DNA from: an uncultured Pirellula sp.
GTDB taxonomy: Bacteria; Planctomycetota; Planctomycetia; Pirellulales; Pirellulaceae
Direction of reading: 5' to 3'
Length of the DNA stretch: 41,397 nucleotides
Assembly (NCBI GenBank): GCA_903892355.1
Contig: CAITIE010000045.1
Location: forward strand, 1 to 41,397
The notes under the pieces are model-generated. The model was given only the letters and a program-made list of their open reading frames with translations, was not told the DNA's origin and made no database searches. Below are positions 24,313 through 41,397 of this stretch, piece after piece; position 1 is the stretch's first letter; every line of letters begins with the position of its first letter. Both the position numbers and the translations under genes were made by a program.

Positions 24313-25755
24313 ATGGCTCTGATGTTCATGACTAACACACGGCTGAAAAGACGCAACTCGATCGGCCGAGGTATTGCACTCGGGTTCATCACACTCGTCA
24401 GTTCGAGTGCCTTTGGCCCCAATGCTGTTGTGCCTTGCAGTTATGGTCAAGGAGGTGCTGGTGGGGGCCAAGCGGGTATGCCTGCGTTCAATGAACCAAC
24501 CTTCAAAGAGCGAATGTACGAAGCTGGCGGTTTACCCGTTCGTGAGGTTCGCGAAGGGGCAGTCATCCTATCGGTCAAGGTCGAAGGCAACCAATCGGTC
24601 TCGGAAAACTTTATCTTGTCGCAAATGCAATCGCGCGAAGATCGCGCGTTTGACAAGGAGACTTTCAATCGCGACATCGCGGCCCTGTATCGAACTAACC
24701 TGTTTCGAAAGATCGACTCCTACCCGACGGAGACTCCCGAAGGAGTTCATATACGATTGATCGTTTCCGAGAGACCGATCATTAAGTCCGTCGATTTTCT
24801 GGGAAATGAAAGGGTCGATGAAGGCCCACTCAAAAAGCACTCCGGCCTCCAAAAAGGTGACCCTCTCGATCCATTCTCCCTCAACTCAGCCCGTGGACGG
24901 CTTATCGAATACTATCAAGACCAAGGGATGAACCAAGTCGACATCCAAATCATCAAGGGGCTAAAACCTGGCGAACGCGAGGTCCAATTCCTGATCAATG
25001 AGGGACCGGTCGAACGGATCAACACCATCCGTATGATCGGAAACGTTGAGTTCAAGGAAGACCTTTTGAAAGCTCGCATCAAAAGTCGCGACTCTCGCAT
25101 GGGGCTGACCTCATTCGCCGGCAACAAGTGCTCGGATGCCAAGCTCGCCGATGACCGCGACGGTCTCCTGGGCTATTACCGGTCCCTGGGCTACTTTGAC
25201 GCTCGCGTCGATTATCAAAAGGCCTACAGCGAAGCTGGTGACTTCGTGGATGTCACCTTCGTCATTTCGGAAGGGAAACGCTACTACATCAATTCGGTTT
25301 CGATCATTGGGACCAAACGTTACCAACCGAGTGAGCTGATTCCACACATGACGATGAAGTCTGACGCGGCCTTCCTGCAGGTCAACAAGATGAAGGATGA
25401 AAAATTCCTTCGCGATCTGTTTGGAGCACAAGGGCACATCTTCTGCGACGTCGAAGGTGAAGTCGTCTACCAACCGAACAACAATCGAGTCGACATCGTC
25501 TACCACGTCCGTGAAGGTGACGTCTATCGAGCCAGCGACATTCGAGTCAACATCGACGGTGATCACACGCAGCGTCGAGTCGTCCTGCAGCCACTGCGAA
25601 ATCTGCGACCCGGGCAAACCATCGATTCTCGCGAACTCGAAAACGGAGAACGCCGACTTCGTTATTCAACCATATTCAACACAGACCCATCGCGCGGTGA
25701 CTTGCCGAGCGTTTCGGTACAACCCCCTGAACGAATGGAAGACGATAGTTTCTGA
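24313..25755 (+). CDS. BamA-like POTRA-only outer membrane assembly protein
   Basis: This 480-residue protein begins with a signal-peptide-like segment (GIALGFITLVSSSAF). It then carries five POTRA repeats at roughly residues 79-155, 155-230, 232-325, 327-405 and 408-462. Each has the usual pattern, as in VEGNQSVSEN, FLGNERVDEG, MIGNVEFKED, IIGTKRYQPS and VNIDGDHTQR. POTRA repeats of BamA bind client outer-membrane proteins and partner lipoproteins. The usual C-terminal 16-strand barrel is absent: the protein stops after ERMEDDSF. The barrel lies in the next gene. The ATG at 24313 has AGGAGGT 8 nt upstream, the best ribosome site in the window. POTRA identity is sure; that the two genes jointly act as BamA is inferred. 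Confidence 0.92.
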   Translation: MALMFMTNTRLKRRNSIGRGIALGFITLVSSSAFGPNAVVPCSYGQGGAGGGQAGMPAFNEPTFKERMYEAGGLPVREVREGAVILSVKVEGNQSVSENFILSQMQSREDRAFDKETFNRDIAALYRTNLFRKIDSYPTETPEGVHIRLIVSERPIIKSVDFLGNERVDEGPLKKHSGLQKGDPLDPFSLNSARGRLIEYYQDQGMNQVDIQIIKGLKPGEREVQFLINEGPVERINTIRMIGNVEFKEDLLKARIKSRDSRMGLTSFAGNKCSDAKLADDRDGLLGYYRSLGYFDARVDYQKAYSEAGDFVDVTFVISEGKRYYINSVSIIGTKRYQPSELIPHMTMKSDAAFLQVNKMKDEKFLRDLFGAQGHIFCDVEGEVVYQPNNNRVDIVYHVREGDVYRASDIRVNIDGDHTQRRVVLQPLRNLRPGQTIDSRELENGERRLRYSTIFNTDPSRGDLPSVSVQPPERMEDDSF

Positions 25756-38816: not shown

Positions 38817-39395
38817 TTAGCTCTTACAACCATGAACCGAACCCCACTGGAGCACGAACGATTTCTGCTTGTCATTCTCAGGCGCCTCTCGCCACGACCT
38901 CTCTTCATCCGCTTGTCTCAATAGCTGAAGAATTTCGAAAACGTTGTCAACCGTCGCATACCCATGTCGCAATAGCCAGCACGAAACGACAGTTCCTGTT
39001 CGCCCTATCCCACCGTAACAATGGACGTACACCGGTCGCGTATCAGCAACAGAACGATCGATCGCGGCAAGAATCTCATTCATCCTTTCGTTGCTGGTGA
39101 TATCTCGATCCTTGATCGGGAAACGCAAGCACTCGACTTGTTCCTGACAGCGATCCGCGATCTCTCGAAGATCTTTTTCATACGGAGTGAACGGCACTCC
39201 TTCAGGGTTTACCTCATCCTCTTCCATCAAATTGACAAAGGTTCGGATGCCAGTGTCAAACAGTCCGGAAACCCGCTCAAGATGGGGCTTCGGCTTAGGA
39301 CGACCGACATAGGAACCGGCCAACAACATGCTTTCGACCACCCAATAACACCGCGGCAAAGGTGGCTTACCACGGGGGATTTGAAATTCGCTCAT
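38817..39395 (-). CDS. Dual-specificity/tyrosine protein phosphatase
   Basis: This phosphatase of about 192 residues has the catalytic loop YVHCYGGIGRTG, with the nucleophile Cys126 and Arg132. The general-acid Asp is likely in FPIKDRDI upstream. The family removes phosphate from Tyr/Ser/Thr or from small molecules through a cysteinyl-phosphate intermediate. The frame reaches TTG 39407, but the ATG at 39395 is the first good start. It is followed 25 nt later by the GGGAFGN protein gene, and preceded by the ThuA gene 88 nt away. Confidence 0.93.
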   Translation of the reverse strand: MSEFQIPRGKPPLPRCYWVVESMLLAGSYVGRPKPKPHLERVSGLFDTGIRTFVNLMEEDEVNPEGVPFTPYEKDLREIADRCQEQVECLRFPIKDRDITSNERMNEILAAIDRSVADTRPVYVHCYGGIGRTGTVVSCWLLRHGYATVDNVFEILQLLRQADEERSWREAPENDKQKSFVLQWGSVHGCKS

Positions 39396-39483
39396 GCTTC
39401 GGTGCAAACCTTCTATAAAATGCTAACAGCCTGTTAAATCAGCGGTTTCCAATCGGCTGCAATCTGAGTCAATCCCTCGCCCA

Positions 39484-40425
39484 TCATCGAGCGAGAGGAT
39501 ACCTAACTGCATTCTCGATCAACTGCAGCATGTTGGGATCTTTGTAGATCGGAAACGTTTCATGGCCCGGCCGGATGTAAATGACCGTCCCTTTCCCCAA
39601 TTTCCACAGCATCACGCTTCGAAACTCTTCACCTGCATCCCAGCGCTCATGAAGAATCGTTTCATCCGGCTCTGGGACATGAAACGGTTCATCGTACATT
39701 TCCGTCCGCGAAAGCGAAAATTTCTCAGGCAGGTTTTTGGCGAGAGGGTGATCAGGTTTCAACACCTGTAGAAAACTCGGTTTGCCATCGTTCCGATACG
39801 CTGGAAAGCAGCAATTCGGAAGAAACAGCTTCACCGTTCTTTTCTTGGACGAACCACTTGAATCCGCCGATTGGACTTCCCAGTAGGGTGTCCTTCGTGC
39901 ATCGCGTGAAGGGGCTTTGAAACGATCAGCTGGGATCTCCTGAATATCCGCGTTTTCGATTCCTTGCTTCGTCAGCTCGGCGCTCAAACGACCTCGAGTA
40001 ACTTCATTCATTGCCTCCATAAAGGGAGTGGACCAATGCGCTGAATGGATCGCGACCAAATTGCATTGGCCTTGTTGAATACGCCGTACGATATCTTTCC
40101 CAATCTCTGATTTGATTTCCGGGTGCCGAATATGCCCCCACCATACGATGACTTGGGCGAAATCAAGCAACGCCGGCGACAAACCTTGCTCTCCATCATG
40201 GATCGAGGAAGAACGAATCTGGAGTCCAGATTTAGACTTCAAATGCTCCGCAATCGCATTCCCTAAAAAGTTTTCATAGGCCTCCTTCTGGGCCGGTTGC
40301 TGCTCGTCCCAAACCAGCACCCGAATCGGCTCATCCGCCGTGCTTCGCGCGGCACAGCCCACGGTAAACAGCGTGAATCCAACAGTGCACGAAAAGCACA
40401 ATGCCCAACGAATGAAACTCGACAA
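39484..40425 (-). CDS. ThuA-domain exported protein
   Basis: This 313-residue protein has an N-terminal signal peptide with a lipobox-like end (LFTVGC), so it may be a lipoprotein. A ThuA (trehalose-utilisation type, class I glutamine-amidotransferase-like) fold follows: IRVLVWDEQQPAQKEAYENF, WWGHIRHPEI, LVAIHSAHWSTPF and the end KGTVIYIRPGHETFPIYKD. The RPGHE motif is usual for the family. In planctomycetes ThuA proteins sit near oxidoreductases and sulfatases in carbohydrate breakdown. Translation probably starts at TTG 40425, which has AGGG 8 nt upstream. Enzyme activity is not established for the family. Confidence 0.9.
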   Translation of the reverse strand: MSSFIRWALCFSCTVGFTLFTVGCAARSTADEPIRVLVWDEQQPAQKEAYENFLGNAIAEHLKSKSGLQIRSSSIHDGEQGLSPALLDFAQVIVWWGHIRHPEIKSEIGKDIVRRIQQGQCNLVAIHSAHWSTPFMEAMNEVTRGRLSAELTKQGIENADIQEIPADRFKAPSRDARRTPYWEVQSADSSGSSKKRTVKLFLPNCCFPAYRNDGKPSFLQVLKPDHPLAKNLPEKFSLSRTEMYDEPFHVPEPDETILHERWDAGEEFRSVMLWKLGKGTVIYIRPGHETFPIYKDPNMLQLIENAVRYPLAR

Positions 40426-40656
40426 ATGGAATCCCTTTCAATGATGGATCGGATCAATGGACCGGCTAGGATGGATACCGCAGATTATACACCAGTCTCG
40501 CGTTCAACCAGGAGTTTTATCTCCATCTCACAAGGGCTCATGAAATCCAACTTGCCCAAAAACTAACGTGCAAAAACCCCAGTATTTTTGAGTCTAACCG
40601 ATGCTAAACTAGGTGCACGTTGCGATAACAAGATCCAAAGCCGACAGCCGATGGAA

Positions 40657-40757
40657 CCACGGATAACACAGATACCACTGATGGACCCAAATCCGTGCCA
40701 TCCGTGAAATCCGTGGTCAAAAATCTTGCACGGAACATGCACGCAGCAATTATCCAA
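40657..40757. repeat. Direct repeat, copy 1 (101 bp, complete)
   Basis: Complete unit beginning CCACGGATAACACAG and ending GCAGCAATTATCCAA. Inside are short inverted elements (CCACGGAT with ATCCGTGG). Confidence 0.97.
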
Positions 40758-40825
40758 CCACGGATAACACGGATACCACCGATGGACCCAAATCCATGCC
40801 ATACGTGCCATCCGTGGTGAAAAAC
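40758..40825. repeat. Direct repeat, copy 2 (68 bp, truncated)
   Basis: It begins exactly where copy 1 ends and matches it to TCCGTGG, with a variant middle. It then diverges just before the GxxExxY ribosome site. Confidence 0.95.
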
Positions 40826-40837
40826 AGGATCGAGAAA

Positions 40838-41209
40838 ATGAGCGAGCTAATCCACAAAGAACTGAGCGAAGCAATCATCGGGGCGGCTATGACCGTCCTG
40901 AATGTACTTCGTCCCGGACTGGATGAAAAGCTTTACGAGAATGCCCTGGTAATCGAACTTAGGAAGCAAGGCTACAAAGTCGAACAACAGCGACAATTCC
41001 CGGTCTATTATGACGGCCAACTCATCGGAATGCTGATCCCTGATTTGATTGTTGACGAACTTGTGATCGCTGACCCGAAGGTTGTGACTGCCTTCAACGA
41101 TTCGCATATGGCCCAAATGCTAGGCTACCTGAATATCACCCAGCTTCAACTAGCACTCCTGCTCAATTTCAAGAACGCTCGCTTGGAATGGAAGCGAGTG
41201 GCTCGATGA
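40838..41209 (+). CDS. GxxExxY family protein (PD-(D/E)XK nuclease-like)
   Basis: This 123-residue protein begins MSELIHKELSEAIIGAAM and has the family signature GLDEKLY (G-x-x-E-x-x-Y). LIPDLIVDELVIADPKVV is the region where other members usually have D...VELK, the putative PD-(D/E)XK nuclease site; here the last part reads DPK. The end LALLLNFKNARLEWKR is also typical. Function unproven; a nuclease role is proposed from fold similarity. The ATG at 40838 has AGGA 8 nt upstream. The gene lies inside a direct-repeat array, and its stop codon directly abuts repeat copy 3. Confidence 0.9.
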   Translation: MSELIHKELSEAIIGAAMTVLNVLRPGLDEKLYENALVIELRKQGYKVEQQRQFPVYYDGQLIGMLIPDLIVDELVIADPKVVTAFNDSHMAQMLGYLNITQLQLALLLNFKNARLEWKRVAR

Positions 41210-41282
41210 CCACAAATCCGTGCCATCCGTGAAATCCGTGGTCAAAAATCTTGCACGGAACGTGCACGCAGCAATTATCCAA
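41210..41282. repeat. Direct repeat, copy 3 (73 bp, internal deletion)
   Basis: It starts with CCAC directly after the TGA stop of the GxxExxY gene and continues with AAATCCGTGCC. It lacks the following ~28 bp (GGATAACAC...GGACCC) present in complete copies, and ends with the same TTATCCAA. Confidence 0.95.
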
Positions 41283-41384
41283 CCACGGATAACACAGATA
41301 CCACCGATGGACCCGAAATCCGTGCCATCCGTGAAATCCGTGGTCAAAAATCTTGCACGGAACGTGCACGCAGCAATTATCCAA
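41283..41384. repeat. Direct repeat, copy 4 (102 bp, complete)
   Basis: A complete unit, nearly identical to copy 1. It has one extra base in the GGACCCGAAATCC segment and GGAACGTGC in place of GGAACATGC. Confidence 0.97.
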
Positions 41385-41397
41385 CCACGGATAACAC
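41385..41397. repeat. Direct repeat, copy 5 (cut by window end)
   Basis: The first 13 bases of another unit (CCACGGATAACAC), so the array continues beyond the window. Confidence 0.95.

Follow-up and report, generated by a model that had tools for sequence, protein, structure and literature searches.

GxxExxY genes and inverted heptamer repeats in Pirellula and other bacteria: a putative minimal mobile DNA element

The window analyzed here is a 41,397-nucleotide stretch of DNA from an uncultured Pirellula sp. and represents one entire contig (C45). The draft genome to which it belongs measures 6.18 Mb and comprises 158 contigs. At its right end, five copies of an approximately 101-bp unit, two of them complete, flank an intact gene of the GxxExxY family. 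This arrangement raises the question of whether the gene and the repeats are mere neighbors or belong together. Our comparison of loci revealed that GxxExxY genes are strongly and specifically linked to such repeats across phyla. Gene and repeats appear to form a single small DNA element that is probably mobile. On balance, the comparative evidence favors the view that the window array belongs to a widespread family of minimal elements, composed of a gene for a PD-(D/E)XK protein of about 120 residues and inverted three-heptamer tracts, in which the nuclease would copy its own unit.

Linkage of GxxExxY genes with heptamer repeats

The window protein matches TIGR04256 with 126.3 bits (cut-off 35) and PF13366 with 119.6 bits (cut-off 22). 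These profile scans took in 40796–41209, from a further in-frame ATG at 40796 within repeat copy 2; the gene itself starts with the ATG at 40838 and ends with the TGA at 41207–41209. The predicted structure is confident (pLDDT 97.3, pTM 0.88). A Foldseek search with this model yielded four matches with E values of 1e-3 or lower, comprising three chains of SSO0001, which we take to be a Cas4, and LHK-Exo. The best match was SSO0001 (E 3e-4), followed beyond these four by lambda exonuclease, a named Cas4 (E 0.017), and a Holliday-junction resolvase (E 0.03), with sequence identities of about 12–17%. A sequence search of the PDB with profile A1 gave no match up to an E value of 10. Asp69 and Lys81 are invariant across 51 sequences, and the window protein carries Asp79 at a position where Glu is usual. 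Based on the profile, the modeled fold, and this D...(D/E)xK core, the window protein is a member of the PD-(D/E)XK superfamily, and nuclease activity is predicted. The model resembles the Cas4, lambda exonuclease, and Holliday-resolvase branch of this superfamily, and two relatives of the window protein show weak Cas4 profile matches. Cas4 proteins have cysteines that bind an Fe–S cluster; in contrast, the window protein contains no cysteine, on which ground identity with Cas4 was rejected. It also comprises only 123 residues, and no cas genes occur in the unit. PHROGs contains no match for the window protein and gave weak or CRISPR-linked matches (E 4e-4 to 0.04) for two relatives, and a phage collection contains no match to one GxxExxY protein (that of locus L013) at an E value of 1e-5.

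Each full repeat unit contains a 62-nt hairpin, the arms of which consist of three CACGGAT-like heptamers with a 9-bp period and unpaired 2-nt gaps. As single-stranded DNA, the two full units fold better than shuffled sequences (Table 1); the lone left arm of L013 forms no hairpin (z 0.37). The spacers between the hairpins are near-identical to each other, and a CRISPR array was rejected for this reason. We defined a three-heptamer tract as three C-R-C-D-R-A-D units with gaps of 1–4. All four tracts of the window lie in this array, compared with a mean of 0.015 in letter-shuffled windows. Neighboring heptamers match at 1757 of 2032 variable positions, where our own arithmetic predicts about 42% agreement if the permitted letters are used evenly, and the gaps match at 79 of 233. 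The design common to the family consists of inverted tracts of three heptamers, at a period of 8–10 bp, around the gene.

Of 100 genomes sampled from the host family, 73 contain TIGR04256. From the matches listed, 39 regions of 10.8–20 kb each were chosen, favoring long contigs and multi-copy genomes. In these regions, the tract density drops from 3.25 per kb in the 150 bp nearest the gene to approximately 0.02 per kb at a distance of 4–9.7 kb (7 tracts in 430,908 bases). A tract occurs within 300 bp of the gene in 27 regions, and on both sides in 15. The reversed motif pattern is absent within 1 kb of the gene and was found five times beyond. The linkage is also evident independently of the motif, as the two 400-bp flanks share a repeat in 31 of the 39 genes versus 11 of 378 control positions taken from these regions (Fisher p 3e-30).

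A broader sample comprised the best 80 of 578 confirmed loci on GTDB contigs, to which we assigned 24 phylum or class labels from the record titles, mostly of metagenome-assembled genomes (MAGs) and some possibly misbinned. The family spans many bacterial phyla plus one 3-kb archaeal MAG contig. A tract lies within 400 bp of the gene in 65 of the 80 loci (on both sides in 37), compared with 10 of 383 control positions. Motif-free sharing between flanks was detected in 55 of the 76 loci with sufficient flank (four had too little) versus 15 of 383 control positions, and inverted sharing in 51 of 76 versus 2 of 383. Altogether, 78 of the 80 loci have a tract or a shared repeat; a stop lies within four of the 80 matches. 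A tract was also present in 26 of the 30 loci L012–L041, which are not independent because the motif was devised after inspecting them. The evidence independent of motif discovery therefore consists of the 80 GTDB loci and 33 of the 39 regions, six of which repeat a discovery locus. These counts agree with the preliminary description of the locus, which had proposed a small nuclease-encoding, REP-like unit, and they extend it to the family in general. Relatives with the gene and no repeat, which it had raised as counter-evidence, are few: neither tract nor shared repeat was found in 2 of the 80 loci and 3 of the 39 regions.

The control positions are mostly coding, and two other gene families from 60 host-family genomes serve as the gene-flank control. 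The tract was found in none of the flanks of 30 genes for four-helix-bundle proteins (TIGR02436) and in none of 30 Y1-transposase loci (PF01797), either within 400 bp or anywhere in the locus sequence taken. The four-helix-bundle genes, of the 23S IVS type, resemble GxxExxY genes in being small, often multi-copy, and accompanied by repeats; their own repeat is common to both flanks in 12 of the 30 loci (L170–L199), one of which has untestable flanks. Their protein is unrelated and never accompanied by the heptamer tract, and they perhaps represent a parallel gene–repeat system.

Repeat classes, unit layout, and occupied sites

The repeat class varies among loci and tracks the nuclease tree, also inside the host family. 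The tree includes 141 of 150 loci, after removal of six duplicates and three loci without a full-length frame; the better hit was used for loci with two, and the window gene was represented by its orthologue in G010, a genome of the same genus. The 112 loci that have a tract within 350 bp were typed, leaving 29 untyped. The changes needed on the tree, with the range over 200 shuffles in parentheses, were 7 (19–23) for the last heptamer base, 20 (41–57) for the heptamer period, 18 (22–30) for the second base, 40 (53–65) for positions 4–5, and 55 (71–80) for the whole heptamer. Within the 49 typed host-family loci, the corresponding values were 6 (13–22) for the last base, 8 (15–24) for the period, 21 (22–31) for positions 4–5, and 30 (34–43) for the whole heptamer, and the second base required 11 changes (11–19), a value reached by one shuffle. 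In the other 63 typed loci, the last base is almost constant and thus uninformative; the value for the second base was reached by one shuffle and those for the remaining features by none. In one supported clade (28 rows), the last heptamer base is A or T in 22 of 22 typed loci, compared with 1 of 90 among the other 113 rows; this split was picked after viewing the labeled tree, which does not apply to the 200 shuffles. Paralogues within one genome differ in class, as illustrated by G011, in which four genes have four classes. Tracts over 1.5 kb away from the gene agree with it in class in 8 of 9 typed regions, the exception being L087; some of these tracts belong to the distal part of a long array.

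In its simple form, the unit is ordered as arm, gene, and inverted arm, and measures approximately 460 bp. The nearest upstream tract is forward in 67 of 97 loci (p 2e-4), and the nearest downstream tract is reversed in 59 of 82 (p 9e-5); both orientations coincide in 38 of the 67 loci with tracts on both sides.

At three sites, the gene is present in some genomes and absent from relatives. In Bacteroides finegoldii, in a record filed as a plasmid that is probably a piece of the chromosome, the interval from radA to an FAD-protein gene measures 478 bp and is filled by an arm–gene–arm unit; these two genes are 13 bp apart in Parabacteroides distasonis. Phocaeicola massiliensis (L273:1600–2250) carries a different gene between the same two genes, where Bacteroides has the GxxExxY unit. 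In Sphingomonas parapaucimobilis, the 464 bp that separate fabD from fabG contain the gene; fabD and fabG are adjacent in S. paeninsulae (fabG by our reading) and Sinorhizobium meliloti (24 bp), the two records inspected among the matches listed. The third site was inspected in four genomes: in G053 and its genus-mate G097, a GxxExxY gene lies between what are presumably a peptidase gene and a UvrD-like helicase gene, and the gap between the same matched stretches is 164 bp in G056 and 108 bp in G058, versus about 550 bp in G053. This pair is not conserved family-wide, because the stretches are not adjacent in several other genomes, such as G019. The gap in G058 (L257, G058:C25, ~24370–24450) contains another palindromic element, GGCAGGCTTCCAGCCTGCCC and its partner. 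Gene gain at the three sites would be the simpler reading; the exact ends are unreadable because the relatives are too distant.

The Pirellula array and its relatives

The features at the right end of the window are listed in Table 1. The preliminary description had noted an array around the gene, and the array is indeed real, with two complete copies, two partial copies, and a fifth that is incomplete because the window is a whole contig ending there. The start of copy 3 overlaps the stop codon, and the AGGA begins 1–2 nt beyond the final base common to copy 2. Its statement that the copies are nearly identical fits copies 1, 3, and 4 (97–99% identity) and applies less well to copy 2 (85–91%). 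The peptides of the FTDGTD type that it had dismissed are present on the minus strand and look spurious. Like the window, four further contigs of the host genome, C64, C141, C52, and C125 (L220, L221, L008, and L212), end in or near these elements, and the repeats therefore break assembly.

Table 1. Coordinates of the array, the GxxExxY gene, and a neighboring gene in the window
Feature	Position	Strand	Details
Repeat copy 1, complete, 101 bp	40655..40755	+	Hairpin 40656-40717 plus spacer; fold z -3.25
Repeat copy 2	40756..~40824	+	Hairpin whole; gene leader in place of spacer
AGGA, likely ribosome-binding site	40826..40829	+	Read from sequence; putative role
GxxExxY gene, 123 aa, PD-(D/E)XK family	40838..41209	+	TIGR04256 E 7e-37, PF13366 E 1e-34, model pLDDT 97.3
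Repeat copy 3	~41204..41280	+	Gene 3' end in place of left arm
Repeat copy 4, complete, 102 bp	41281..41382	+	Fold z -3.49
Repeat copy 5, 15 bp	41383..41397	+	Cut at contig end
ThuA-like gene, ordinary neighbor of array	39484-40425	-	PF06283, E 1e-17

In the sister genome G010, the left flank is 96–97% identical to that of the window, and the array continues beyond the position corresponding to 41397. On its contig C254, a single copy precedes the gene, which is followed by one partial and four more copies and then by a truncated 5' piece of the gene. The genes of the two genomes differ by two synonymous and two non-synonymous codons of 124. Copies from one and the same genome have a mean identity of 94.2%, and copies from different genomes one of 93.0%; this difference is too small, and concerted evolution of the array was rejected. 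The same values leave little weight to the earlier suggestion that the array is young or kept similar.

The genome of the window contains three TIGR04256 matches, the third of which is outside the matches listed. One paralogue, on contig C133, is enclosed in a direct repeat (about 258 bp, 93% identity), the sequence of which, ACGCGGAG with an 8-bp period, is quite unlike that of the window; a 5' piece of the gene also follows this paralogue. Truncated GxxExxY pieces occur in tandem near intact genes in L069 (18173–18937, 492 bp apart) and L071 (12940–13414, 346 bp apart), and the gene-bearing unit therefore itself duplicates.

Copies without the gene are numerous. Relatives of one hairpin region of about 200 bp yielded 10 matches on 8 contigs in the genome of the window (G000) and 12 matches on 9 contigs in G010. 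Among 34 loci at such positions, which overlap in part and include two chosen for their four-helix genes, only L048 contains a GxxExxY frame. Of the 100 host-family genomes, 18 contain CACGGAT tracts; a TIGR04256 match is present in 17 of these 18, and among the matches listed, most of these tracts are not next to a listed gene. The repeats are therefore not confined to the GxxExxY gene; the preliminary description had anticipated that free copies might undo the association, and such copies do exist, but the association is clear all the same. Most repeat sites compared between G000 and G010 pair as the same site in both. Two G010 sites checked in G000 (C424 and C351) revealed unrelated intergenic sequence and a re-expanded variant, and no empty site. 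At another site (L213/L214; G000:C126 and G010:C62), the aligned lengths are 4347 and 4371 bases, a difference that probably arises from the number of 9-bp CACGGATAA-like units. A search with the flanks of L064 in five genomes gave only scattered matches and ones that are tRNA-like by our reading. The preliminary description had also called for an empty site; gene-less relatives were found at the three sites described above, but none for the window's own site, at which G010 carries the gene and G074 has no match to the left flank.

A putative minimal mobile element and its alternatives

Considering the linkage, the lineage matching, and the occupied sites, we propose a mechanism in which the GxxExxY nuclease, probably as a dimer or oligomer, would bind the heptamer tract of its own class and nick or cut there. 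Repair or recombination at the cut may then copy the unit, giving rise to arrays, gene-less hairpin copies, and occasional new insertions. The gene-less hairpins would thus relate to the nuclease gene as miniature inverted-repeat transposable elements (MITEs) or repetitive extragenic palindromes (REPs) relate to a transposase gene. A bolder claim, put forward tentatively and at somewhat less than even confidence, is that these loci represent a new class of selfish DNA: an element of about 450 bp whose sole nuclease, of about 120 residues, would recognize its own ends and mobilize itself and gene-less copies, with nuclease and repeat co-diversifying.

Several observations weigh against this proposal. 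A tract of this form is lacking in 29 of the 141 loci, and genome G043 has CACGGAT tracts and no TIGR04256 match. The tree is a quick maximum-likelihood tree from few columns, with 61 of 137 inner forks open. The S. parapaucimobilis gene has a left arm only. No clean insertion with exact ends or a target duplication was seen, including at the host-genus sites compared. The gene is under purifying selection (dN/dS 0.04–0.10 in six of ten pairs, with three saturated in dS and one of unequal length), and such strong constraint would fit a host function too.

The best surviving alternative, which we nevertheless regard as unlikely, is homing, in which the repeats would spread in some other way, and cleavage of a cognate repeat by the nuclease would lead to gene conversion that places a copy of the gene between two arms. 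The window gene sits exactly in place of a spacer and one arm of the array, many tracts have no gene, and the lineage matching would fit such recognition. On the other hand, the relatives at the three sites lack gene and arms together and do not retain a gene-less array, and some units have merely one arm per side. Less probable still is a host or passenger gene, the nuclease of which has another task, such as trimming of cruciforms or junctions, with the tracts acting as regulatory or stability sites. The strong purifying selection and the fold akin to exonucleases and a Holliday-junction resolvase are consistent with this possibility, and upstream heptamers such as GGAG may provide a ribosome site; however, tracts flank the gene on either side, make up long arrays, and lie scattered at places that lack the gene, and GxxExxY genes come and go at conserved gene pairs.

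Tandem repeats that can fold, next to a small nuclease gene, also recall a type III toxin–antitoxin system, in which the repeats would be the RNA antitoxin to a nuclease toxin. In such systems, the antitoxin repeat array lies on one side, upstream of the toxin. GxxExxY genes have tracts on either side, mostly oriented oppositely and sometimes with one arm each, and tracts also occur dispersed without the gene. Rfam gave no family at threshold over 39000–41397 (two sub-threshold miRNA matches were taken as chance), and no PADLOC model matches the window protein. Identity with a type III system was rejected on the basis of the inverted tracts on both sides, and we consider the idea highly improbable. 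The weakest candidate, which assigns the tracts to a Y1/HUH transposase (RAYT) as its REPs and makes GxxExxY a chance neighbor, draws on a layout with dispersed palindromes like that of REPtrons (PMC3733652) and on Y1 transposases in 45 of the 60 host-family genomes, and is strongly disfavored by the 0 of 30 Y1 loci with a tract and by tracts that follow the GxxExxY lineage.

The comparison with REPtrons is nonetheless instructive. As described in PMC3733652 and related reports (PMC8266576, PMC2817692, and PMC3116915), a RAYT (TnpA-REP) gene in REPtrons and TIRtrons lies between REPs or inverted repeats, and further REP copies are dispersed. GxxExxY elements share the small gene for a DNA-processing enzyme, the flanking palindromes of its own class, the gene-less copies elsewhere, and the arrays; palindromes next to the gene together with dispersed copies are thus found in both. 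They differ in that the enzyme is PD-(D/E)XK, not HUH/Y1, and unrelated to RAYTs, and in that the arms are three periodic heptamers, compared with the tagged short palindromes of REPtrons. Identity with a REPtron was rejected, as the gene's only family is PD-(D/E)XK and no Y1 locus had a tract. Similarly, the elements resemble insertion sequences and MITEs in their inverted ends, single gene, shorter gene-less relatives, and occupied and unoccupied sites, but have no DDE or HUH transposase and end in periodic heptamers. No target duplications were seen; the relatives at the three sites are too distant to reveal them, and the closer pair, G000 and G010, offered no clean empty site. A full-text literature search, with most subscription journals outside its coverage, found no link of GxxExxY, PDDEXK_3, PF13366, TIGR04256, IPR026350, or COG5614 to repeats; PMC8934634 and PMC12085832 mention GxxExxY in passages that do not concern repeats.

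These findings give a testable role to a gene family named in annotation only by a motif, and a partner to a repeat type that is scattered over many genomes, breaks assemblies, and gives rise to spurious open reading frames. If the nuclease does move the repeats, the element would, to our knowledge, be among the smallest self-sufficient mobile elements, and the family would represent a second, unrelated way of doing what REP/RAYT pairs do. The recognition could be worked out from the dozens of nuclease–repeat pairs in nature that differ in heptamer and period.
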